From: Niastella vici
GTDB taxonomy: Bacteria; Bacteroidota; Bacteroidia; Chitinophagales; Chitinophagaceae
DNA length: 64,000 nt
Direction: 5' to 3'
Assembly: GCF_002077945.1 (NCBI RefSeq)
Contig: NZ_LVYD01000049.1
Location: forward strand, 1 to 64,000
The position numbers and the translations under genes were made by a program. Numbering within the stretch: the stretch's first letter is position 1; each line of letters begins with the position of its first letter. Below the pieces are notes generated by a model. The model did no database searches. It saw only the letters and a program-made list of their open reading frames with translations, and had not been told where the DNA came from. Positions 23,238-64,000 of this stretch are shown one piece after another.

Positions 23238-25400
23238 TTAGAAAGTGATGGTATAACGAACATTGACATTGCGGCCGGCCAGGTTGAACCCACGCTTTTC
23301 GTAATAGTTTTCGTCGGTGATGTTATTTACAAACACCCCCAGCGTATGCTTTTTGGCAAAAGTATACCCTGCATACCCGTCAACCACCATAAATTCAGGA
23401 TACACGATCTCGGGTGATTTGGCATCATTGAAATCGGTGTCCTTGCGGTGGCCCACATAACGGCCGTTTATGTGCAGGGCAATTCCTTTTTTGTTATTGT
23501 ATTCCACGCCATAGCTGGCAGTGAGGTTGGCAATATTGTAAATGTCTTTGGCGGTTTTGGCGCCGTTGGTGGCAATGGTAATTTCCTGTGCCTCGACTAT
23601 TTTGGTGGCATTGATGAATGCCCGTAAGGCATACCGCTTATTTTGCAGCGCGCCAAAATCATACGAGAGCTCGCCTTCCAGTCCGCGGATCTCGCCTTTG
23701 TTGGCGTTGATATACGTGGTGCGGGAACTGATGGCATACCCGCTGGCCGTGGTATCGGGTGTGGTGGGCACGGTCTTTTGCGTGGTGATGCGGTCTTTTA
23801 CATCGGTATAGAAATAAGTGAGGTCAATAGCTAAGCCTGATGGATGCTGATACCGGAGGCCGCCATCCCAGCTGATACTGTTCTCATTCTTCAGATCGGG
23901 ATTGCCCTGGGTTACCGTGGCTTTGTTACCGGCAATAATTTCTGAATAACCGGCTACATTATACGCATCGGGGGTTACATAGGCGCGGCCCACCGTGGCA
24001 TGGATCGTGAGGTCTTTTAACAACTGGTATTGCGCGGCGAGGCTTGGACTGAAAAATGGATTGCTTTCCTTACCGGGGGCATACGTATCGAGCAAGGGTG
24101 TTTTCTTTACGTCGTACGTAATGATGTCGTACCGTACACCGGGATTGATGATCAGTTTATCGTGCAGAAAGCTCAGTTGTCCCTGTACATAGGCGGCGCT
24201 GAACACCAGGTCGTAATTGGGCGAAAATGGCGCTTTTTCCGTGCGGTTGGCGTTGTACGATTGTGAGGTGGTGGTAGCCCGGTTGTGGTCGATACCAACA
24301 ATGAGGGTATGATGGCCCAGCTTTACTACATCTTTCAATTGAACGCCCGTCCATTCGGCTTTGCTTTGAAAAGAGAGGTAGGGTACAATAAGATTGCCAC
24401 CCGATACCAGCGTGTTGTTAAAATTCTTTTCACTGGCTGCATAGGCTCTTACACTTACTTCCTGTTTGCCGAGCGTGCCGGTAATGCTGAACTCGCCGTT
24501 GTACCGTTCTATGTCTTTGGTACTGGGCTGTGCATTGCCGTAAAAGATATCGCTGGGCGATTCTACATTTTTAGCTACAAAGCGTTCTGCTTTGGCATTC
24601 AACTTCCAGTTGCTGGTTAACTGGTAGCCTACGCGTACACTGCCGGTGTTATAATTGAGGCGGGTGTATTCGCGCCGTAATCCGTCGGAACGTTTGTCGT
24701 CGATCACCACCGGGCTGTCGAGGTAATTGGCAGTATAGGTATCGGCATGCAACAGTTTCCGGAACACATTCCCATTGCCCAACTTCATGTTCTTGTTGCG
24801 GTCGAAGCTGGTAAAGGAAAGATCGAAATCGAGTTTCTCTGTTATGTTGCCACCTGTAGTAACGGTTCCTTTGAAGGTTTGGAAGGAACCGTATTCGGCC
24901 GATACGCTGCTGCGGATAGCGCCTGCCGATTTGCGGGTAATTACATTCACCACGCCACCCATTGCCTGCGAGCCGTATAAGGCAGAAGCTGGTCCTTTCA
25001 GTACTTCGATGCGTTCAATATCAGAAGGGTTGATGGTGGCTAAATTGCCGGTTCCGGCCGGGCGGCTATCGATCAACAACAACACACGCTGGTTCAACCC
25101 GCCTGTTTGCGGGCGGAAACCACGGATACCTGTACCTGCCAGCAAGCCGGGGTATTGTACAATATTTACGGATGCATTTTTTTTGAGCAGATCGGTAAAT
25201 TCCGTGGCGCCGGTGTTTTCGATGTCTTTACGGCTGATAACCGTGATGCTTTGCGGCGTTTTATTGCTGAGTACTTCGGTACGGGTGGCGGTTATCACCA
25301 CCTGTCCCAGGGTTTGTGTTTTAACAGTGTCTGTTTGTACGTGTTGGCACAAAGCAGTAGTGGTGGCCAGCGTGGCGCCGGCCAGTAACAAATGTTTCAT
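23238..25400 (-). CDS. btuB: TonB-dependent receptor for cobalamin (BtuB-like)
   Basis: Outer-membrane active transporter, 720 residues. A signal peptide (residues 1-18) is followed by a TonB-box-like segment LGQVVITATR at about 30, a complete plug (about 40-155, with IENTGATEFTDLLKK, GTGIRGFRPQTGG, VLKGPASALYGSQAMGGVVNVITRK) and a barrel ending in VRYTITF. The substrate is inferred from its place between btuD and the adenosyltransferase, downstream of a cobalamin riboswitch. It lies 31 nt after btuD. Confidence 0.88.
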   Translation of the reverse strand: MKHLLLAGATLATTTALCQHVQTDTVKTQTLGQVVITATRTEVLSNKTPQSITVISRKDIENTGATEFTDLLKKNASVNIVQYPGLLAGTGIRGFRPQTGGLNQRVLLLIDSRPAGTGNLATINPSDIERIEVLKGPASALYGSQAMGGVVNVITRKSAGAIRSSVSAEYGSFQTFKGTVTTGGNITEKLDFDLSFTSFDRNKNMKLGNGNVFRKLLHADTYTANYLDSPVVIDDKRSDGLRREYTRLNYNTGSVRVGYQLTSNWKLNAKAERFVAKNVESPSDIFYGNAQPSTKDIERYNGEFSITGTLGKQEVSVRAYAASEKNFNNTLVSGGNLIVPYLSFQSKAEWTGVQLKDVVKLGHHTLIVGIDHNRATTTSQSYNANRTEKAPFSPNYDLVFSAAYVQGQLSFLHDKLIINPGVRYDIITYDVKKTPLLDTYAPGKESNPFFSPSLAAQYQLLKDLTIHATVGRAYVTPDAYNVAGYSEIIAGNKATVTQGNPDLKNENSISWDGGLRYQHPSGLAIDLTYFYTDVKDRITTQKTVPTTPDTTASGYAISSRTTYINANKGEIRGLEGELSYDFGALQNKRYALRAFINATKIVEAQEITIATNGAKTAKDIYNIANLTASYGVEYNNKKGIALHINGRYVGHRKDTDFNDAKSPEIVYPEFMVVDGYAGYTFAKKHTLGVFVNNITDENYYEKRGFNLAGRNVNVRYTITF

Positions 25401-46622: not shown

Positions 46623-48623
46623 ATGAACACCTTACACATACGGCTATGCTGGTGGCTCGTATTGTTGCCTGTATCATTATGCCGGGCGCAGTCGGGCGAC
46701 AGTGTGTCTACTTTAAAAAAAGTGACGGTTTCGGGGCTGAAAAAGAAAAGCACCTTCACCGCGGTGACGCCGTTGCAATCGCTTACCAGCGAAACGCTGC
46801 AGCAATTGAACGCCCCTTCGGTGGGCGATGCAGCGCGCTATTTCAGCGGCGTGCTGGTAAAGGATTATGGTGGGGTGGGTGGCTTGAAAACTGTTTCGGT
46901 TAGAAGTTTGGGCGCAGCGCATACCGGCATTTTATACGATGGTATTCCGGTGTCTGACGTACAGAGCGGACAGGTTGACCTCAGCCGGTATTCCACCACT
47001 TTTGTACAATCGATCGATCTGCAACAGGGCAGCCCGGCCACGCTGTTGCAACCGGCGCGGGCATACAGTTATGCGGCGGTATTGTCGATCAATACGCCTT
47101 CGATGAATGCGCTGCTGTTGCCCGCTCACCAATGGCAGGCCGGTTTAAAAGCAGGATCGTTTGGTTTATGGCAACCCTTCGGCAGCCTGCAATTAAAATT
47201 GCCAAAGCAGGCGATGATCGGCCTTAGCTCCGAGGCTGTGTTCTCAAAAGGCGATTACCCGTTCCATATAAGCAATGGCGCTTATTCAGAAGATACAAAA
47301 CGGCAGAATGCCGATATGAAATCGTTTCAGGGTGAGCTCAACGGCGTAAAACAATTCAACGATAGTTCAATTTTGCAGGTGAAGTTTACCGGTTATCACA
47401 GCAGCCGCGGATTGCCGGGCGCTATTGTTTTCTTCAATGAGCGATCGGTAGAACATCTCTGGAATACAGATACCTATTTTCAAAGCCGTTACCGCAAGTC
47501 GCTTGGTCGCAATACCGGATTGTTGATCTCTGGCAAATACAGCCGCAACTATACCCGCTATACCGATCCTGATTTTTTGAATAACCAGGGCGGGCTCGAT
47601 AACCGGTATACGCAACAGGAATATTATTTTGCTGCGGCCATCGATCATACCATTGGGGAACGGTTAACATTGGCTGCTGCCTCAGACGCAGCGTATTCGC
47701 AGCTTACCGCTAACCTCACCAATTTCGCCACACCAACCCGCCGCTATTTCTGGAACAATGTAGCGGCACATTACAATGGCGGCTTGTGGCAATTGAACGG
47801 TTCCCTGTTATTATCAACAGTGAATGATAAAACCGGGAGTGGAAAAGCCGCTGCCACCATCAACAAACTAACGCCATCCATTGCAGGTAATTTGAAGTTG
47901 GGAGAGAGCAGTCCATTCATGGTGCGGTTGTTTTACAAACACATCTTTCGCATGCCCACTTTCAATGACCTGTATTATAACTGGATCGGAAATCCCGATC
48001 TGCGGCCTGAATATGCGCGCCAGTATAATGCCGGACTGGTATTTTCGAAGTCAATCAATAAAGTGCTGAAGCAATTCACGATCAGTGCAGATGGATATTA
48101 CAACCGGGTAAATGACAAGATCATTGCGGTTCCCAATAAAAATCTCTTTTCCTGGACGATGTTAAACCTGGGAAAAGTAGATATTAAAGGCATCGATGTA
48201 AATGTAGAAGGCGCCGGACAACTAACCGGTGCGGTTACCTGGTTCACCCGCATGGCCTATACCTGGCAGCAGGCCCTTGATGTTACCGATAAAACATCGG
48301 CCACTTATAAGAACGATATTCCTTATACGCCGCGCCATTCCGGCTCGGGGCTGGTTAGCCTGCAATACCGCGAATGGAGTGGGGGGTATAGCCTGGTGTT
48401 TTCCTCAACACGGTATACATTAGGCGAGAACAATCCTTATAACCAACTGGATGGTTGGGGCACACAGGATGCTTTTGTAGCGTGGACAAAACCCATGAAG
48501 ACTTTTTGTGTACAAATACGGGCGGCGGTAGATAATGTGCTGAACAGGCAGTATGATATAGTGCGGTATTTTCCAATGCCGGGCCGTTCGTTTAAACTTG
48601 GTTTACAACTTAACAATTTATAA
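46623..48623 (+). CDS. btuB: TonB-dependent cobalamin receptor (BtuB-like), second copy
   Basis: Outer-membrane receptor of 666 residues. A signal peptide (1-23, ending CRAQ) is followed by a TonB-box-like LKKVTVSGLKKKS, a complete plug (about 45-160, LNAPSVGDAARYFSGVLVKDYGG, LKTVSVRSLGAAHTGILYDGIPVSD) and a barrel with MPTFNDLYYNWIGNPDLRPE near 450. It ends in LQLNNL. The riboswitch upstream marks it as a corrinoid receptor. It is followed 9 nt later by a beta-propeller lipoprotein. It differs clearly from the receptor at 23238. Confidence 0.9.
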   Translation: MNTLHIRLCWWLVLLPVSLCRAQSGDSVSTLKKVTVSGLKKKSTFTAVTPLQSLTSETLQQLNAPSVGDAARYFSGVLVKDYGGVGGLKTVSVRSLGAAHTGILYDGIPVSDVQSGQVDLSRYSTTFVQSIDLQQGSPATLLQPARAYSYAAVLSINTPSMNALLLPAHQWQAGLKAGSFGLWQPFGSLQLKLPKQAMIGLSSEAVFSKGDYPFHISNGAYSEDTKRQNADMKSFQGELNGVKQFNDSSILQVKFTGYHSSRGLPGAIVFFNERSVEHLWNTDTYFQSRYRKSLGRNTGLLISGKYSRNYTRYTDPDFLNNQGGLDNRYTQQEYYFAAAIDHTIGERLTLAAASDAAYSQLTANLTNFATPTRRYFWNNVAAHYNGGLWQLNGSLLLSTVNDKTGSGKAAATINKLTPSIAGNLKLGESSPFMVRLFYKHIFRMPTFNDLYYNWIGNPDLRPEYARQYNAGLVFSKSINKVLKQFTISADGYYNRVNDKIIAVPNKNLFSWTMLNLGKVDIKGIDVNVEGAGQLTGAVTWFTRMAYTWQQALDVTDKTSATYKNDIPYTPRHSGSGLVSLQYREWSGGYSLVFSSTRYTLGENNPYNQLDGWGTQDAFVAWTKPMKTFCVQIRAAVDNVLNRQYDIVRYFPMPGRSFKLGLQLNNL

Positions 48624-48632
48624 TCAACTACA

Positions 48633-49697
48633 ATGAAACAGATCAGGTTCGTTTTACCTCTGGTAGCTTTGGTGGCAGGTATGGTCTCCTGTAAAAAGGA
48701 TGACATTAATACAGACACCCCGCCAGTTGCTACCGGTGTGTATGTGCTCAGTGAAGGAAAATTCAACAACAATAATACAACCCTTACTTATTACAATTTC
48801 AATACGGGTGTTGCTACTACTGACTATTTTGCCAATGTAAACGGAAGCGGTTTGGGTGATACCGGTAATGACCTGCTTATATATGGCAGCAAAGCATATA
48901 TTGTTATGAACGGATCGAGCTATGTGGAGGTGATTGATGTAATGACGGCAACAGCGCTGAAGAATATCCCATTCAAGAACGGTAGTGTTTACCGCTTACC
49001 CCGGTATGCCGTAGCTTATAAAGATAAAGTACTGGTATCTGCTTATGATGGTACGGTGGCAGTGATTGATACTACCAGTCTGGCCATTGAGAAAAATATT
49101 ATGGTGGGCGCCAATCCTGAACAAATGGCCATCAGCGGCGACAAATTATATGTAGCCAATTCAGGAGGATTTAACCCGATATTCGATTCTACCATTTCTG
49201 TAGTGAGCCTCAGTACATTCACTGAGCTGCAAAAAATAGTAGTAGGTGTAAACCCCTTCAGTGTGGTGGCTGATAATGCCGGTAATATTTATGTAGGTTG
49301 CACCGGTGATTATGTTTCCATTAAGCCTAAACTGGTTAAAGTAAGCACTGCTACCAACAGCGTTGTAAAATCTGCAGATACAGCCGTTGGTAATCTTCGT
49401 TATTTTAATGGGCAACTGTATGCTAACGGTGGTTATTTGGGTGTGCCTTATGTACGGGTTTTAAGCACCACTGATTTTTCACAGAAAAGCAGCAACTTCA
49501 TAACCGATGGCACCAGGGTGACCACGCCATATGGATTAAATATCGATGCTAACTCTGGTGATGTTTATATAACAGATGCCAAAGATTATAATTCTTCCGG
49601 CGAAGTTTTTTGTTTTGACAAGAACGGTAAGAAGAAATTTTCGTTTAAGGTAACGCCGGGGATCAGTCCGAATACGGTGGCGTTTATCAGGCAATAG
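48633..49697 (+). CDS. btuG: Beta-propeller lipoprotein, BtuG-like
   Basis: A 354-residue lipoprotein (lipobox MVSC, Cys20) followed by YncE/DUF5074-like propeller blades: GVYVLSEGKFNNNN, VEVIDVMTATALKNIPFKNG, VAVIDTTSLAIEKNIMVGANPEQM, ISVVSLSTFTELQKIVVGVNP, GEVFCFDKNGKKKFSF. In Bacteroides, BtuG is a surface propeller lipoprotein that binds B12 tightly and passes it to BtuB. The match in fold type, lipidation, gene order and riboswitch control is good. The assignment rests on context plus fold, not on an alignment. Confidence 0.8.
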   Translation: MKQIRFVLPLVALVAGMVSCKKDDINTDTPPVATGVYVLSEGKFNNNNTTLTYYNFNTGVATTDYFANVNGSGLGDTGNDLLIYGSKAYIVMNGSSYVEVIDVMTATALKNIPFKNGSVYRLPRYAVAYKDKVLVSAYDGTVAVIDTTSLAIEKNIMVGANPEQMAISGDKLYVANSGGFNPIFDSTISVVSLSTFTELQKIVVGVNPFSVVADNAGNIYVGCTGDYVSIKPKLVKVSTATNSVVKSADTAVGNLRYFNGQLYANGGYLGVPYVRVLSTTDFSQKSSNFITDGTRVTTPYGLNIDANSGDVYITDAKDYNSSGEVFCFDKNGKKKFSFKVTPGISPNTVAFIRQ

Positions 49698-55327: not shown

Positions 55328-57250
55328 ATGAAAGGGATCTTTACCTTATTCGTATTTATTGTTTATATACACCATGCCTGCGGTCAAGCCAATACCTGTC
55401 CGGCTAACATTGACTTTGAATCGGGCTCGTTTACCAATTGGCAATGCTACACCGGGTTTACCAGTGTAAGCAATAATAAGAATACCATAACTGTTTCGCC
55501 ATCGCCACCGGTCACAGGCAGGCATACCCTATATGCCAAAGGGGCCGCCACTACCGTTGATCCATATGGTTTATTTCCCATAAATCCGCCCGATGGCAGT
55601 GGCTATGCCGTTCGGCTGGGTAATAATATCAATGGGTCGGAAGCCGAACGCATTACTTATCAGTTTACGGTTCCCACCAATTCAAAAGACGCCTCCCTTA
55701 CTTACCGCTATGCCGTGGTGTTCCAGGACCCCGGTCACGACCAGATCGAGCAGCCCCGGTTTATTGCCCGCATGCTCGATGTGCAAACCAATTCTTACCT
55801 CACCTGTGCTTCCAGCGAATACATTGCCACTGCTTCGCTGCCAGGATTCCAGGTTTCTTCAGTGGATGCTTCTGTTAAATTCAAAACCTGGTCATCGGTT
55901 TTCCTGAACCTCGATGCGTATGCAGGCAAAACCCTGCAACTCGAATTCACTACGGCTGACTGTACCCGTGGGGCGCATTGGGGCTATGCTTATATAGATG
56001 TGGGCGAATGCAATGTGACCGCTTCGGCGCATTATGACTGCAAAGTGAATATTGCCAGCTTTAAAGGGCCGGGTGGTTTTCAGGAATACAAATGGTACGA
56101 TGATAATTTTAAAACATACCTGGGCACGGGTGAGAACCTGGTTCTTGACCCCGCGCCGGAAATTCATACAATAAATGTAGTGGTGATCCCTTACAACGGC
56201 TTTGGTTGCAGCGATACCTTACAGGCTTCCATTAATCCCATTTTGCCACTGGCCAATGCGGGTAACGATACCCTGGTATGTCCCGGTAAACAGATAACCA
56301 TTGGCACACCCGGCGATAACAGGTTCACCTATGCGTGGTCGCCCGCCAGTTTTTTGTCAGATACAACGGTTGCCCAACCGGTTGGTACCATGCCCGGGCC
56401 GGCCACCTATATAGTAACAGTTACCAGTATTGAAAGTGGTTGTGTTGATAAAGACACCATGAACATAACTGTGTTTCAACCTATAGACGTGACGGTATCG
56501 CCCGATCAAACCATTTGCGAGGGGCAAACCGTGAATCTGCAGGCACAGGGCAGTGCCGTGCAATACAGCTGGTCGCCGGGGTACGGCTTAAGCCGGAGTA
56601 ATATTGCTAACCCGGTGGCTGCACCAACTACCACCACTACTTACCGGGTTGTGGGCTTCGACGGGCACCAGTGTTTTACCGATACCGGTTTTGTAAAGGT
56701 GAATGTAAATCCAAAACCCCGGGTTGATGTGGGGCCCGATGTAGTGCAGGCAACCGGCACCACATATACACTGGCGCCAAAAACGCAAAATGGGCCAATT
56801 GTGTCGTGGAAATGGACACCTGCCAATGACCTTAGTTGTGATACCTGTTCAGCACCGGTAGCTTCCGTTAAAAAGAGTATTACGTACCGCGCTACGGTCA
56901 CCAATCAAAATGGTTGTGTGGGCACCGATAGTATGAGCATCAAAACATTTTGCCTGAACACGCAGGTGTTCATTCCGAATGCATTTACGCCTGATGGTGA
57001 TGGACTGAATGATGTGCTGATGGTGCGCGGCAAAGGCATTGCCCTGGTGCGTTCGTTCCGCATCTTCTCACGCTGGGGCGAGCTGGTGTTTGAAAAAACG
57101 AACTTTCCCCCCAATGATCCTGCATTTGGCTGGGATGGAAAAGTAAGAGGAGTGACAGGGCCGGCCGAAGTATATGTATATATGGCCGATGTGGTTTGCG
57201 AGAATGACCTTATCAATACGTATAAAGGAAATGTTACGCTGTTGAAATAA
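55328..57250 (+). CDS. T9SS type B sorted surface protein
   Basis: A 640-residue protein with signal peptide (1-19, ending ACGQ). The N-terminal part (20-230) resembles a lectin-like or carbohydrate-binding beta module (CPANIDFESGSFTNWQCYTGF). PKD-like or Ig-like repeats follow at about 300-520, with the recurring VSPDQTICEGQTVNLQAQG and YSWSPGYGLSRSN pattern. The C-terminus (545-640, VFIPNAFTPDGDGLNDVLMV, FSRWGELVF, GPAEVYVYMADVVC) is the gliding-motility or type B sorting domain. It is followed by a PorP/SprF gene, the usual export partner of type B cargo. Confidence 0.92.
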   Translation: MKGIFTLFVFIVYIHHACGQANTCPANIDFESGSFTNWQCYTGFTSVSNNKNTITVSPSPPVTGRHTLYAKGAATTVDPYGLFPINPPDGSGYAVRLGNNINGSEAERITYQFTVPTNSKDASLTYRYAVVFQDPGHDQIEQPRFIARMLDVQTNSYLTCASSEYIATASLPGFQVSSVDASVKFKTWSSVFLNLDAYAGKTLQLEFTTADCTRGAHWGYAYIDVGECNVTASAHYDCKVNIASFKGPGGFQEYKWYDDNFKTYLGTGENLVLDPAPEIHTINVVVIPYNGFGCSDTLQASINPILPLANAGNDTLVCPGKQITIGTPGDNRFTYAWSPASFLSDTTVAQPVGTMPGPATYIVTVTSIESGCVDKDTMNITVFQPIDVTVSPDQTICEGQTVNLQAQGSAVQYSWSPGYGLSRSNIANPVAAPTTTTTYRVVGFDGHQCFTDTGFVKVNVNPKPRVDVGPDVVQATGTTYTLAPKTQNGPIVSWKWTPANDLSCDTCSAPVASVKKSITYRATVTNQNGCVGTDSMSIKTFCLNTQVFIPNAFTPDGDGLNDVLMVRGKGIALVRSFRIFSRWGELVFEKTNFPPNDPAFGWDGKVRGVTGPAEVYVYMADVVCENDLINTYKGNVTLLK

Positions 57251-57294
57251 GTTCACAGTTCAAAGTTGACAGTTCATAGTTTAAAAGTTCAAAG
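57251..57294. repeat. Heptamer-word tandem, locus 6 (GTTCAAA type)
   Basis: GTTCACA-GTTCAAA-GTTGACA-GTTCATA-GTTTAAAA-GTTCAAA: five 7-base words and one 8-base word fill the whole space between the stop of the T9SS cargo gene and the porP start (57298). There is no second, inverted arm. It occupies the ribosome-binding region of the next gene. Confidence 0.75.
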
Positions 57295-57297
57295 CTC

Positions 57298-58332
57298 ATG
57301 CGCCGATCTTTACCCTGCTATTTTTTTATATTGCTATGCTTTCCTGTGCTGATCATAAGGGCGCAGGATATTCATTTTTCGCAATTCTATGAATTCCCGT
57401 TGTTGCGTAACCCGGCGCTGGCGGGCATCTTCAACGGCAATTTCCGCCTCACCGCTGCGTATCGCAATCAATGGCAAAGCGTTACCGTTCCCTATAGAAC
57501 AATGGCGGCAAGTGCCGAATGTAAAATGTTGCGCGGTTTTGCCACCGGTGATTTTATAACCACCGGCATACAGGTTACCAATGATGTGGCCGGTGATGCC
57601 AAACTGCAACGCACCCAATTATTTCCTGTTGTTAATTACCACAAACTGTTGAATGAAGATAAAACTACTTTTATTTCCCTGGCTTTTATGGGCGGACCGG
57701 TCAATGAACATTTTGATGCCACCAAGTTGCGCTTCGACGATCAGTATGTGAACGGGGCTTACAGTACGAGCACCCCTACGCGGCAACAATTTGGTGCAAC
57801 CAGTTTTACGTATTGGGATGCGTCGGTGGGCGTAAGTTTTAAAACAAGCCTCAACGACAATATAAATATGTATGTGGGCGGTGGCTTGTTCCATATTTCA
57901 GCACCGCAAATTGCTTTTACGCAGGAGTACGATGTACGATTGAACCGTAAATGGGGTGTGAATGGCGGGCTCTCGGCCTGGATAAACAAGATGGATAAAA
58001 TTGTTTTTTATGCCGACTATTTTTTACAGGGTGGGAACCGGATGATACAGGGCGGCGGTTTGTATACGCATTGTTTTGATGAGGATGGAGAGGAAGGCGC
58101 GTTGACAGTTGCAGTGGGCGGCGCCCTGCGTTGGAAAGATGCTTTTATTCCCCTCATAAAAATAGCTACGCATCAATTGGGAATTGGATTAAGCTATGAT
58201 GTAAATATCAGCAAGCTCACCACGGCTTCCCAGTTCCGCGGCGGTTTTGAATTGTCGTTGTCTTATACCGGTTTGTGGAAGCGATTGGCGGAAAGTCTGG
58301 AGAAGGTGGAGTGCCCGATAAAGATCTGGTAG
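57298..58332 (+). CDS. PorP/SprF family T9SS membrane protein
   Basis: A 344-residue outer-membrane protein with signal peptide (1-22, ending IRAQ). The family hallmark IHFSQFYEFPLLRNPALAGIFNG is at the start of the mature part, followed by NFRLTAAYRNQWQSV and a 12-14 strand barrel-like pattern. PorP/SprF proteins help type B cargo reach or stay on the surface. The T9SS type B gene directly upstream, in the same direction and 47 nt away, is the expected partner. Confidence 0.94.
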   Translation: MRRSLPCYFFILLCFPVLIIRAQDIHFSQFYEFPLLRNPALAGIFNGNFRLTAAYRNQWQSVTVPYRTMAASAECKMLRGFATGDFITTGIQVTNDVAGDAKLQRTQLFPVVNYHKLLNEDKTTFISLAFMGGPVNEHFDATKLRFDDQYVNGAYSTSTPTRQQFGATSFTYWDASVGVSFKTSLNDNINMYVGGGLFHISAPQIAFTQEYDVRLNRKWGVNGGLSAWINKMDKIVFYADYFLQGGNRMIQGGGLYTHCFDEDGEEGALTVAVGGALRWKDAFIPLIKIATHQLGIGLSYDVNISKLTTASQFRGGFELSLSYTGLWKRLAESLEKVECPIKIW

Positions 58333-58572: not shown

Positions 58573-61110
58573 GTGAAACGACTGCTATTGTTGCTGCTAT
58601 TCCCTGCGTTCGTATCGGCGCAGGAAGTAACCCCCGTTTTGTCAAATGATTATCAGGCATTGATCAATGCCGATACCTTACGGCTAAAAAATTTTTGGCC
58701 CGATACCATCAACAGTATCAGGCTGTCGACATTGATCGCTTACCGCGACTATTATGGTTTCAGGGTGCGCGATATCCAGGTTCAGCACGGTATGCTGGCT
58801 ATTAAACCGGCTTATCAAAAGACCTTGTACCTGGGCGGGCAATTTAATACCCGCCTTGAAATAAAACGTACTAATCAAACGCCCGGTCTGCAAACACAAT
58901 ACGTACAGGGCCGGTTGCAGAACGGTTCACTTGCCTGGCGTGGCGCAGAAACGGGTGAAGGCTTCAGCTACGGCCCCAACGTGCGAACGTTGGAATATGA
59001 TGGCAGCAATTATGCGTACGATACAAATGGAAAACTTGTGCCTGCCGGAACGGGCAATGGACAGCCTGCCAATGTTTATAATAACTCCATTTTCAGAACG
59101 GCGGCTATGGTGTCGCATGCCTTGCGCATTCAGGGCCTGTATATGGTGGGTGGCAAACAGATCCTGAATGGCACCATCAGGATGGGACAATCGCGGGAGA
59201 ATACTTTTATTAAAGAGAACCGCAACACCTCGCATAATCTCTCCGCTTCGCTGGAAGCGGTTTTAAAAAAGATAAACATTGCAGGAACCTATACATTTTT
59301 GCAGGATGAATTTTCGAACCCTAACCGGAATGGTTTCCTCAATCGTGTATACCAGGATGCCTTGCTGACCCCGGTATGTTTTGATAATGCGCAAAACGCC
59401 AATGGCGCTAATAACCAACAGGCATATAGCCATGCTGCGGATAATCCGGTTTATTTGCTCAACAATAATGGTAACCGCTATTTGCAAACACACCGCACCG
59501 GCAGTTTGGTGTTGGAAAGAAAAACAGGCCTGGTAAAATATAAGCTCACCCAATCAATTGAGAACGGGTATCAGCAGAACCGGGAAGGGTATAAAGCCGG
59601 CAGTGCCTGGTTCCCGAATGGCATTGCCATTGGCCGCACAAAGAATGATGTCAATTATTTTGTGGAAGGGAATGCCTCCTACGATGTCAAATTCCGGGAT
59701 GATGATTTTTCAGGTAAGGTGGCCGCTCACTATAATTATACCAGCAACCGGTCGGCCATTGATTACGATGCCGCCAGGAGGTACCGGTATCAGCGTTCGG
59801 CGCATGATGCTTCGTTGATGTACACGCAAAATTTCGAGGACAGGTATAATGATATTGAGGCCGGGCTGCACGTAGCTAATAAGATCTACGTGTCAAACAC
59901 GGCATCGGTCAATAATTATTTTTTGCCCAATATAAATGCCTTTGTAAAAAAGGATGAGTTCCTTGGGGTCACGGATGTTTCTGCCAGATTCAATGCCGCT
60001 TATTACCGTTTTAATAATGAATTACCGGTAGGGCGTTCTTTTTCGCAGACCAGTTTATTACAATACACCACGCAGGATGCATTTCAGTTCTTCCCTCTTA
60101 CAGAAGTGAACGGCTTTGACGGGCTGGAACCCATTCAACACCGCGAGTTTACGGGCCGGTTGGAACTGAGCTATCAAAACCGGGTCACCTTATATGGCGA
60201 ATTGTTCAGTAGAAATACAGCAAACGATGTTTTTCCGGTGCTTGAAAATGGTAACCTGGTGTTAAAGAATGTAGCCAGTCATTGCAATAAAGGTATGGAG
60301 CTGGGGTTAACGGTAATCCATAACAGCAGGGATCTTTATTCAAACAATACGCTTTCCTTTTTCAGGACCAATAATAAAGTGACCGATGTAGCACCCGGCT
60401 ACGATTATATGCCTGTTGCCGGTTTCAGCAATGTACATACCGCCATTGTGAAAGGCGCACCGCTCGGCAGTATAGTGGGTTCAGCCTTTCAACGGGATGG
60501 CGATAATAATGTGCTGATTGGCAATGATGGATTTCCGCTAGTGAGCACAACGCCGCAGGTGATCGGCAATCCGCTGCCCGACTTCATTATGAAAATGAGC
60601 AATTCCTTTGGCTGGAGAAAATGGTACTTCGATGTGCAATGGGAATGGAAGAAAGGCGGGCAGGTATGGAACGGGACGCAGGCGGTGCTGGATTATTACG
60701 GCCGGTCGGCTACAACGGCGGCGCTCAGGAATACCACCGGTTATGTGTTTGCCGGCATGTTGCAGAATAAACAACCCAATAACATCCCCGTATCATTTTA
60801 TGCGGTGAACCAGCCGGTTGAATTCAATCGCTGGACGCGGTATGGCCATAGCGGCGTAGCAGCCGAATATATTCAGAAAGGAGATGTGTTGCGGTTGAAT
60901 ATGGTCAGTATCGGGTTTAAACAAAGAATAAGAAAGTATATCCAGGAACTGGGCTTCACCCTGTATGCCAGTAACCTGGTATTGTATTCGGCGTATAAAG
61001 GCGTTGATCCAAACCAGTTACTATACGATCAGCCCAATGCCACCGGTCTCGATTTCTTCAATCTGCCTTCGCTGAAAACTTTCGGTTGTAACCTTTCCAT
61101 TCAATTTTAA
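58573..61110 (+). CDS. SusC-like TonB barrel without a plug domain
   Basis: An 845-residue protein, GTG start at 58573, signal peptide ending VSAQ. SusC proteins normally have a regulatory domain and a plug before the barrel. Here an unknown segment of about 85 residues (18-100) is followed directly by the barrel start (GRLQNGSLAWRGAETGEGFSYGPN, typical of the first SusC strands). The barrel then runs to the end with the SusC-type C-terminus GDVLRLNMVSIGFKQR...ELGFTLYASNLVLYSAYKGVDPN and a terminal Phe. No GVVVVGYG or IRG-type plug motif was found in this protein. The next gene, 3 nt downstream, contains such a plug. Confidence 0.9.
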   Translation: MKRLLLLLLFPAFVSAQEVTPVLSNDYQALINADTLRLKNFWPDTINSIRLSTLIAYRDYYGFRVRDIQVQHGMLAIKPAYQKTLYLGGQFNTRLEIKRTNQTPGLQTQYVQGRLQNGSLAWRGAETGEGFSYGPNVRTLEYDGSNYAYDTNGKLVPAGTGNGQPANVYNNSIFRTAAMVSHALRIQGLYMVGGKQILNGTIRMGQSRENTFIKENRNTSHNLSASLEAVLKKINIAGTYTFLQDEFSNPNRNGFLNRVYQDALLTPVCFDNAQNANGANNQQAYSHAADNPVYLLNNNGNRYLQTHRTGSLVLERKTGLVKYKLTQSIENGYQQNREGYKAGSAWFPNGIAIGRTKNDVNYFVEGNASYDVKFRDDDFSGKVAAHYNYTSNRSAIDYDAARRYRYQRSAHDASLMYTQNFEDRYNDIEAGLHVANKIYVSNTASVNNYFLPNINAFVKKDEFLGVTDVSARFNAAYYRFNNELPVGRSFSQTSLLQYTTQDAFQFFPLTEVNGFDGLEPIQHREFTGRLELSYQNRVTLYGELFSRNTANDVFPVLENGNLVLKNVASHCNKGMELGLTVIHNSRDLYSNNTLSFFRTNNKVTDVAPGYDYMPVAGFSNVHTAIVKGAPLGSIVGSAFQRDGDNNVLIGNDGFPLVSTTPQVIGNPLPDFIMKMSNSFGWRKWYFDVQWEWKKGGQVWNGTQAVLDYYGRSATTAALRNTTGYVFAGMLQNKQPNNIPVSFYAVNQPVEFNRWTRYGHSGVAAEYIQKGDVLRLNMVSIGFKQRIRKYIQELGFTLYASNLVLYSAYKGVDPNQLLYDQPNATGLDFFNLPSLKTFGCNLSIQF

Positions 61111-61113
61111 GTT

Positions 61114-64000
61114 ATGAGAAATACGATAAAATATTGCCTGCTGGTATTGTTTTGCCTGAGCGCATTATTCGGCATAAGCCAGTCGCTTGAATATGCCAGC
61201 AGTAAAGAAAAGGTGTATGTACAAACCAGCCACGTGTACTTCAAGCCGGGTGAAACCATGTATTTCAAGGTATACGTGGTGAATGCCAATACACAAACCC
61301 CTTCGTTCCTGAGCAATGTGGTGTATGCCGACATCATTGGCCCATCGGGCAATGTGGTACAGAAGCTGAATTATGGCGTGGAGAACGGTTATGCCGAAGG
61401 ATCATTCGATTTTAAGGACGAGGCCCCGGGCGGTGTATACAAACTGCGGGCCTATACCACCTGGATGCAGAATGAGAAGGAAAATACTTTTTTTACCAAA
61501 GAGATCACCCTGCTGAAAGTGATAGCGCCCCGCTTGTTAATGAAACTTGAGTTCCCCGAAAAAGGTTATGGCGCCGGTGACGAAGTAAAGGCCGATTTCT
61601 CCATGCGGAACCTGAATGACCAACCGATACGGAATTACCCGGCCACTTACAAAGTGTTGATCGATGGCGTACAGGTACAACAGAACACGTTCACTACAGA
61701 TAATGAAGGCAAAGCGCAGCTGCGTTTTAATTTGCCCGCCACATTGAATACGGCCGACGGCTTGCTGAACATCACCATAGAATACGATTCGTACCGCGAA
61801 GCCATTTCGCGCAGCATTCCCATTGTGCTGAATAAGATCGATCTGCAGTTTATGCCCGAGGGCGGAACGCTGGTGGAGAAGCTGCATACGTACATCGCTT
61901 TTAAAGCCGTCAATGAATTTGGAAAGCCGGTAGATGTAAAAGGAGAAGTGCTGGATGGTGAGGGTAATGTAGTGCAGTCATTTGAAAGCCTCCGGTTCGG
62001 GATGGGAAAATTTTCATTCTCCCCAAAGAAAGACGAGACCTACCACGCCCGCATCACTATACCCGCGCAGATCAAGCAACAATATGAATTGCCCCATGCA
62101 TCCAAACAGGGTATGGTGATGAATATAAAGAAACGCACCGGAGAACTGATGGTGAGGCTGGCATCAACCAGTAAACAGGAAGTAACATTGGTGGGCCAGG
62201 CGAAAGGCAAAAATTATTTCACCCAAAAAATAACGCTGGAGCGGGGTGAGAATGGATTGATAATCGATGAAAACAAATTCCCCGCAGGCATTGCGCGGTT
62301 TACCCTGTATAGCGCGAATGACCTGCCGGTGGCCGAACGCATCATCTTTTGCAACGAAAACAACAACCTGCAGGTAACTATCAGTACCAACAAACCGAAG
62401 TATTTGCCGCGGGAAAAGGTTAGGCTTACTGTAAAAACGCAGGATGAAAAAGGCAACCCGGTTCCGGCCAATTTATCGCTGTCGGTGCTGGATGATAAAT
62501 TGTGGTCTTTTGCCGATGATAAGCAGGACCATATTTTATCGTGGCTATTGATGAGCTCTGAACTGAAAGGGAAAATTGAAGAACCTGCTTTCTATTTCAA
62601 AAAGGAGGAACCGAAAGCCCTGCCGGCGCTTGACCTGGTGATGCTTACCCATGGGTACCGGTATTTTGATTACACCAAAACGGTAGAGGAGCAGGGCCGG
62701 TTATCATTTATGCCCGATCAGCCGCATGTGGTTAGTGGCACCATCGTCAATGCGCAGCAACAGCCGGTTAAGGCAACTGTTTACCTGGTACATTGTGCAT
62801 ACGGCGGTAAAGCCATTCAATTTCATACCCGCGAGAATGGCGTGTTCTTTTTTTCGCAATTGACGCCAAACAGCAGTTACTATTTATTTGCCCGTGCTGA
62901 AGATAAAAAGGAAAAAGTGACCATACAGGTTTCGCAAAATGGCAGCGGTTATAATCCGGTTGCCTGGCGTGATAAGGAGGGCGAACTGGCTATAAAACTG
63001 GATAGAGAATTACCAGCTGTGGCGCCCGGAGCGGTGCCGTCACCACTGCCACCTGCACCTGTATTGGATGACCGGCGGGTTTTGGGTCCTGATATGATGA
63101 ATGTGAATGAGCTGAACGATGTAGTGGTGGTAGGCTATGGGGTTTCGCAAAGAAAGCTTTTGACCGGCAGTATAGCTACCATGCGCATCAATGAATTAGG
63201 TTACACAAACCCTGTGACTGCCTTGCAGGGCCGGGTGGCTGGTTTGATAGTTCAGGAAAAGGCCAACCCGATGCAGGGCCCAACAATTAAAATACGTGGC
63301 ACCCGGTCGGTAGCCGAAGCTGCAGACCCGTTGGTTGTACTGGATGGCGTGCCCATAGAACAATACCGGATGAATTTCCTGAATGCGGCCGATATAGAAT
63401 CGATCACTATTATGAAAGATGCCGCGGCTACCGCCCTGTATGGCAGCCGGGCCGCATATGGCGTAATTGTCGTGGAGACCAGGAAGTTCAGGGGCGGCAA
63501 ATTGCGGATCAATTTTCCGCAACATTATTATTATGCTTCCCAGCCGGTATATACCCTCAACGGGCCTTCATTTTCGGTTGCCCGGCGGTTTTATGCGCCC
63601 AAATATTATACAACAGAACCGCAGGAACGCACCGATTTCAGGGAAACCATTTACTGGAATCCTGTAATACAAACAGATAAGGACGGTACAGCGCAGGTTG
63701 AGTTCTATAATTCAGATGCCACCACCACCTTCAGGGCAATCGCCGAAGGCATTGGCTATAATGGAAAAGCGGGCCGGGCCGAACATACCTATGTAACACA
63801 GAACCTGATAAGCGCCGATGTAAAAGTGCCGCCTTACCTCACCGTGGGTGATAAAGCGCTCATTCCGCTGGTAATAAAGAACAACAGCGTGCAGGATATG
63901 ACATTCCGGGTGAAAATATTCCTGCCGCCCATGATGGAAACCACCGAAGTAACGTACACGGTGCTGTTGGGGGCCGACAGTTCAAAGCAATTACTGATAC
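61114..64000 (+). CDS. Alpha-2-macroglobulin-like protein with an embedded SusC-type plug (partial)
   Basis: 962 residues are visible; the gene runs off the window end. It has a signal peptide (1-22, ending GISQ). Residues 25-130 are a macroglobulin MG2-like domain (KVYVQTSHVYFKPGETMYFKVY). Further MG-like beta domains run to about 530, and a carboxypeptidase-regulatory-like domain (QPHVVSGTIVNAQQQPVKAT) lies at about 535-610. Residues 670-790 are a SusC-type plug: VVVVGYGVSQRKLLTGSIA, NPVTALQGRVAGLIV, IKIRGTRSV, PLVVLDGVPIEQY, ADIESITIMKDAAATALYGSRAAYGVIVVETRK. After about 810 comes an A2M-like domain (FRETIYWNPVIQTDKDGTAQVEF, TTTFRAIAEGIG). The stop of the barrel gene is 3 nt upstream. Confidence 0.92.
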   Translation, partial: MRNTIKYCLLVLFCLSALFGISQSLEYASSKEKVYVQTSHVYFKPGETMYFKVYVVNANTQTPSFLSNVVYADIIGPSGNVVQKLNYGVENGYAEGSFDFKDEAPGGVYKLRAYTTWMQNEKENTFFTKEITLLKVIAPRLLMKLEFPEKGYGAGDEVKADFSMRNLNDQPIRNYPATYKVLIDGVQVQQNTFTTDNEGKAQLRFNLPATLNTADGLLNITIEYDSYREAISRSIPIVLNKIDLQFMPEGGTLVEKLHTYIAFKAVNEFGKPVDVKGEVLDGEGNVVQSFESLRFGMGKFSFSPKKDETYHARITIPAQIKQQYELPHASKQGMVMNIKKRTGELMVRLASTSKQEVTLVGQAKGKNYFTQKITLERGENGLIIDENKFPAGIARFTLYSANDLPVAERIIFCNENNNLQVTISTNKPKYLPREKVRLTVKTQDEKGNPVPANLSLSVLDDKLWSFADDKQDHILSWLLMSSELKGKIEEPAFYFKKEEPKALPALDLVMLTHGYRYFDYTKTVEEQGRLSFMPDQPHVVSGTIVNAQQQPVKATVYLVHCAYGGKAIQFHTRENGVFFFSQLTPNSSYYLFARAEDKKEKVTIQVSQNGSGYNPVAWRDKEGELAIKLDRELPAVAPGAVPSPLPPAPVLDDRRVLGPDMMNVNELNDVVVVGYGVSQRKLLTGSIATMRINELGYTNPVTALQGRVAGLIVQEKANPMQGPTIKIRGTRSVAEAADPLVVLDGVPIEQYRMNFLNAADIESITIMKDAAATALYGSRAAYGVIVVETRKFRGGKLRINFPQHYYYASQPVYTLNGPSFSVARRFYAPKYYTTEPQERTDFRETIYWNPVIQTDKDGTAQVEFYNSDATTTFRAIAEGIGYNGKAGRAEHTYVTQNLISADVKVPPYLTVGDKALIPLVIKNNSVQDMTFRVKIFLPPMMETTEVTYTVLLGADSSKQLLI

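Follow-up and report, generated by a model that had tools for sequence, protein, structure and literature searches.

A plug-less SusC-type barrel encoded beside a plug-bearing thioester macroglobulin in Niastella vici and its relatives: a probable two-chain TonB-dependent transporter

To our knowledge, TonB-dependent transporters are single chains. Two adjacent genes of Niastella vici, at the end of the 64,000-nucleotide stretch of DNA analysed here (the start of contig NZ_LVYD01000049.1, hereafter the window), raise the question of whether such a transporter may also be divided between two proteins. The first gene encodes a SusC-type barrel and the second an alpha-2-macroglobulin with a plug inside it. 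The database names of both genes are generic (hypothetical protein, TonB-dependent receptor, plug domain-containing protein, macroglobulin). The features of the pair are as follows, with residue numbers in the second protein from the third line on.

58573..61110, forward strand: plug-less SusC-type barrel protein of 845 aa (sequence profiles, AF2, fold searches)
61114..64000, and on to contig position 65637, forward strand: thioester alpha-2-macroglobulin with an internal plug (sequence profiles)
61210..61491, forward strand: MG2 domain, residues 33-126 (domain match)
61603..61752, forward strand: MG4 domain match, residues 164-213
62356..62496, forward strand: tail of the bait-region domain PF07703, residues 415-461 (domain match below cut-off)
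62731..62937, forward strand: CarboxypepD_reg domain, residues 540-608 (domain match below cut-off)
62950..63102, forward strand: disordered, poorly conserved linker and possible bait, residues 613-663 (identity and prediction)
63115..63135, forward strand: TonB box NDVVVVG, residues 668-674 (by comparison with DEVVVTG of BT1763)
63184..63465, forward strand: SusC-type plug, residues 691-784, with R728 and K768 (domain match)
63646..63915, forward strand: A2M/MG7 domain, residues 845-934 (domain match)

The AF2 model of the window barrel (pLDDT 90) is a complete 22-stranded barrel without a plug, and thus has the predicted strand number of the SusC/RagA outer-membrane barrels. Fold searches matched it to SusC structures, which were found in this way only, as the barrel profile (A1) gave no match to PDB sequences. 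Proteins of the SusC/RagA type carry their plug within the barrel chain, whereas the window barrel and 80 homologues all lack one, and a plug of that type is encoded in the neighbouring gene instead. The first-pass annotation had proposed that the barrel gene lacks a plug, and this is borne out. In a wider search, 217 barrel relatives were found at E <= 1e-3 among 7,999 candidates scored, and no Pfam plug was detected among the best 120 of these 217. Some barrel relatives keep an N-terminal regulatory domain (two by Pfam, others by length and by eye).

The second gene starts 3 nt downstream of the barrel gene, and domain matches confirmed that it encodes MG domains, a regulatory domain and a SusC-type plug, as first annotated. 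Its full product is 1507 aa long, with the TED and the GCFEQ motif falling beyond the window end. It shares with the type I macroglobulins, such as E. coli YfhM/ECAM and Salmonella A2M, the MG domains on both sides of the bait region (MG2, MG4 and A2M/MG7) and a CXEQ thioester in the TED (93.5 bits); the motif GCFEQ is found in 80 of 80 macroglobulins, the window's included. Its fold matches ECAM as well as human A2M and C3, and the sequence of its thioester half resembles human A2M (E 1e-20) more than YfhM (E 1.3e-4). Unlike YfhM/ECAM and Salmonella A2M, it has a plug module at the bait position, and neither a lipobox nor a pbpC neighbour in the window. Searches of the window protein with a rough lipobox pattern and, for a type IX tail, with domain profiles gave no match (signal peptides and lipoboxes were listed for the loci before L081). 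The window macroglobulin therefore does not resemble an inner-membrane lipoprotein with a pbpC neighbour, as it has no lipobox match and its neighbours in the window differ. Adjacency to pbpC is described for a number of bacteria, not all (PMC5764988).

The module between the bait-region domain and MG7 corresponds to the N-terminal module of SusC (CarboxypepD_reg, TonB box and plug), and it occupies the bait-region position of the macroglobulin, so that the bait site contains the regulatory domain, a disordered linker and the plug. The DEVVV-type TonB box that precedes the plug in SusC/RagA proteins is likewise found before the plug, on the macroglobulin chain. The linker (residues 613-663) is the least conserved segment of the protein, with a mean pairwise identity of 0.18, and disorder is predicted over residues 616-684. 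The plug itself has a mean identity of 0.41, lower than the N-terminal MG region, MG7, TED and MG10 (0.46-0.56), and modelled alone by AF2 it reached only middling confidence (roughly 60-75). Compared with SusC/RagA proteins such as BT1763, BT2264 and RagA, the pair therefore has the same 22-strand fold and the same SusC-type CarboxypepD_reg domain, TonB box and plug, but here the last three lie on another protein than the barrel.

To place the pair among other genomes, we scanned one genome per species and found 94 loci encoding a relative of the barrel, of which 80, chosen by the barrel alone, were kept. These loci belong to Niastella, Chitinophaga, Paraflavitalea, Chryseobacterium and others. 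In 79 of them a plug-bearing macroglobulin, with plug, MG7 and thioester half, is the next gene on the same strand, and in the remaining one (L046) the contig ends inside the barrel. The adjacency that the first-pass annotation had anticipated in other genomes thus holds in all 79 loci where it is visible, although many of them come from the single genus Chryseobacterium, so that they do not count as 79 independent events. The gap between the two genes, measured mechanically, is 0-5 nt in 54 of the 79 loci, negative in 20 as a result of using the first in-frame start, 29-165 nt in four, and 1,199 nt in L045. The C-terminal half of the macroglobulin has 2,383 relatives, and 118 of the best 120 carry a Pfam plug. 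A single SusC gene that was broken or misassembled, with no true two-chain system behind it, has an example of sorts in two isolated broken copies, the barrel of L043 and the macroglobulin of L081, each lying in two frames. Since all 79 loci, which range from Chitinophagaceae to Chryseobacterium, share one layout, and the key residues are kept, we rejected this explanation and leave it a negligible probability.

The two halves are also inherited together. In the window's family (147 genomes), the same five genomes carry both halves (barrel cut-off E <= 1e-40, thioester half E <= 1e-20): the barrel matches six genomes and the thioester half exactly the five other than G020, whose barrel match is a longer SusC with a partial plug at the locus edge. 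In the genus of G210, both are present in the same six of 199 genomes, at neighbouring coordinates (barrel E <= 1e-80, thioester half E <= 1e-40). At these same cut-offs, a scan of 395 genomes of the class matched the thioester half in 66 and the barrel profile in six, namely as split barrels in G000, G210 and G499 and as four complete SusCs in G229, G414, G467 and G499. The cut-offs differed between the barrel and macroglobulin queries in these samples, and absences are limited because only the best few candidates per genome were scored (two or three in the class, up to six in the family and four in the genus).

From the class scan we took 59 macroglobulin loci besides the window's own, with G193, G233, G377, G413, G502 and G506 left out of the sample. 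A SusC-type plug occurs in two of them (L144 and L186), each with a plug-less barrel immediately upstream. In the remaining 57, neither a SusC-type plug nor a barrel match was seen in the locus DNA, 53 of them with at least 2.9 kb of upstream DNA to inspect. These plug-less Bacteroidia macroglobulins of about 1450 aa share with the window protein the order MG, MG7, TED, MG10, but differ in having mostly a low-complexity linker at the site (by eye) and no split barrel beside them.

The segment between MG6 and MG7 in the 59 relatives helps to define the site where the plug sits. According to Pfam, it contains CarboxypepD_reg in 49, TonB_C in four and a plug in four, and in most of the others inspected by eye (16 of the 59 segments) it holds a bait-like low-complexity linker. 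These contents indicate that the plug occupies the place of the bait in other macroglobulins, and that this site has taken up parts of the TonB system more than once. TonB_C is found there in L152, L192 and L197 (and in L199 by eye); L197 combines a plug and a TonB_C domain in one bait site. Besides the SusC-type plugs of L144 and L186, plugs of another type, Oar-like by eye, occupy the site in L167 (24.2 bits) and L197 (42.3 bits). No barrel was seen in the 5.7 kb upstream of L167, or in the 1 kb upstream of L197 before the contig ends, and these two loci break any rule by which a plug requires an adjacent barrel. In the window's own genome, three MG2 proteins of about 800 aa (L008, L009 and L010) were also seen, with a weak Pfam plug match in one and none in two.

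We also looked for residues that could hold plug and barrel together. In FhuA, the plug residues R93 and R133 are predicted to pair with the barrel residues E522 and E571, and replacement of these glutamates by arginine inactivated the transporter (PMC11658791). We located the four residues in the E. coli gene and transferred them to the pair by motif for the plug and by alignment for the barrel. R93 (IIRG) corresponds to R728 of the macroglobulin, which is R in 79 of 79 plugs, and R133 (EIMRG) to K768, which is K in 75, R in three and L in one of 79 (these counts leave out L081). The two barrel positions are:

60145..60147, forward strand: barrel E525, aligned two columns from FhuA E522 and hence facing the same way on the strand, with the register uncertain between such remote relatives; E in 71, D in 4, S in 4 and N in 1 of 80
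60298..60300, forward strand: barrel E576, aligned with FhuA E571 (RGVE); E in 68 and D in 12 of 80

An acidic residue is thus kept at position 525 in 75 of 80 barrels and at position 576 in all 80, and in 73 of 79 pairs all four residues are of the canonical type. As the residues are kept on two chains, the halves of the lock reside in different proteins. We also compared the trees of the protein segments in 77 rows thinned to 58, with L043, L048 and L081 left out. The correlation between plug and barrel (r = 0.76) is the highest that the plug shows, while its partial value falls to 0.10 in 30 Chitinophaga-type loci; the distances of the N-terminal MG region follow those of the barrel more closely than the plug's do (0.96, partial 0.65).

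These data bear on a rival explanation, in which the macroglobulin plug serves as a soluble module for interaction or TonB binding, while closure of the barrel falls to its own loops or to a different plug protein; the two genes would then lie side by side for co-regulation only. The low partial correlation and the closer tracking by the N-terminal MG region would fit it, as would the barrel-less plug-like domains of L167 and L197 and a second, membrane-anchored plug protein encoded just upstream of the barrel in Chryseobacterium. Against this, the plug-bearing macroglobulin and the plug-less barrel occur together in every one of the 79 loci, a SusC-type plug without a barrel was seen in none of the loci examined, and the barrel has kept the acidic residues of the FhuA lock. 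We consider this explanation unlikely, and very probably the plug of the macroglobulin docks in the barrel in trans.

The neighbours of the pair were analysed in 30 loci. Among the 112 neighbours, SusD families do not appear in the 25 families listed of 164, and no SusD gene was seen next to the window pair. Upstream of the pair, the window encodes a T9SS type B cargo-like protein (CHU_C) and a PorP/SprF protein (55328-58332), and the downstream gene is phosphatase-like by eye. A type IX secretion context was considered for the pair and rejected: PorP/SprF and CHU_C proteins were seen again in L025 and L043 only, and were therefore left out of the system. Elsewhere in the window lie a complete TonB-dependent receptor with a DUF5074 protein after it (46623-49697) and a second complete receptor (23238-25400) near ABC-transporter and cobalamin-type genes (by eye).

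In Chryseobacterium loci (positions 7847-9502 of L050, and others), an ECF sigma factor and then a plug protein with a TM-like stretch are encoded just upstream of the barrel. These membrane-anchored plug proteins are 360-880 aa long and some have vWA or YfbK domains. A further observation comes from G499, which has a split pair (L186) and also a one-chain relative, L187. The latter is a 1623-aa SusC (L187, 5408-10279) composed of a regulatory domain, VIT, vWA, TonB box, plug and barrel, and its body ahead of the TonB box resembles inter-alpha-trypsin-inhibitor. Of the four complete SusCs scored (L110, L111, L112 and L187), it comes nearest to the split barrel, with 437 bits for the barrel and 152 for the plug; 11 other scored loci hold cut proteins. 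The plug scores do not set L187 apart, since six SusC plugs of the window's own genome, all from among these cut proteins, score 131-146 bits against its 152. L187 has, like the pair, a large body before the TonB box, but it differs in that plug and barrel share one chain and VIT/vWA replace the macroglobulin. Its architecture indicates that a large body before the plug is compatible with this type of barrel.

Both observations would also suit a signalling or envelope-stress device, in which the macroglobulin uses its plug to sense the state of the barrel and reports it, transport and trapping being secondary: Chryseobacterium has the sigma factor and the anchored plug protein beside the pair, and L187 has VIT and vWA before its plug. 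We regard such a device as very unlikely, given that neither the Chitinophagaceae loci nor the window show a recurrent sigma or anti-sigma gene next to the pair, and that all 80 macroglobulins retain the thioester motif.

The split barrel and plug-macroglobulin pair is thus a confirmed observation, and the two genes probably encode a two-chain TonB-dependent transporter whose barrel is closed by the macroglobulin-borne plug. A transporter plug has its two ends facing the periplasm, so that a plug can be an insert within a periplasmic protein. For the same reason, together with the TonB box in the linker before the plug and the lack of a lipobox or type IX tail in the window protein, the macroglobulin body should be periplasmic. 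A display of the macroglobulin at the cell surface as an inhibitor, one of the roles initially proposed, is disfavoured on these grounds. The original proposal that the plug sits in the neighbouring barrel is supported in part: the absence of a plug from the barrel, the adjacency, the lock residues and an FpvA precedent stand for it, while surface display is disfavoured. In that precedent, a soluble FpvA plug partly rescued a plugless FpvA barrel in trans (PMC10994204), which indicates that a two-chain assembly is feasible; the engineered two-piece FpvA differs in that it was man-made from one gene and has no macroglobulin. A search of the full-text literature, with most subscription papers and all bioRxiv preprints outside its coverage, found no description of such a split pair.

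In the mechanism that we propose, the first chain would form an open SusC-type barrel in the outer membrane, and the second a periplasmic thioester macroglobulin whose plug would enter the barrel from below and close the pore. The inserted plug would dock the macroglobulin beneath the pore, and TonB, by engaging its box in the disordered linker, would move the plug. We lean towards TonB acting on the macroglobulin plug in this way. For comparison, the TonB box of BT1763 is DEVVVTG (residues 82-88), mutants in it grow poorly on levan, and the BT1763 plug leaves the barrel in vitro in the closed-lid state (PMC7782687). The rest of the mechanism is a guess that we hold tentatively, namely that the macroglobulin serves as a protease guard, a trap under an import pore. 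An incoming protease would cut the linker, the thioester trap would spring, and the protease would be held at the gate. In human A2M, the trap is sprung when the bait, once cleaved, retracts from a channel; bait tension was ruled out as the trigger (PMC9352918). By analogy, a cut in the linker could spring the trap here, and the human result would speak against a trap sprung by pulling. A more far-reaching suggestion, which we regard as doubtful, is that the pair is an envelope machine of a new class: the stopper of a pore powered by TonB would have taken the place of the bait in a thioester trap, and opening of the pore would be mechanically linked to springing of the trap.

On that last suggestion, the macroglobulins with TonB_C or another plug at the bait position may represent parallel wirings of macroglobulins to the TonB system, and the membrane-anchored plug protein encoded beside the ECF sigma factor in Chryseobacterium could compete for the barrel and report its vacancy. 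A natural two-chain transporter would demonstrate the portability of the plug, and a separable plug would offer a system for studying plug movement. Such a transporter would moreover assign a complement-like thioester protein to one particular gate in the outer membrane and to a source of energy, so that the unsettled role of bacterial macroglobulins would become testable. An open barrel with its stopper on a protease-trap protein would be an uncommon design for the construction and protection of a membrane gate.
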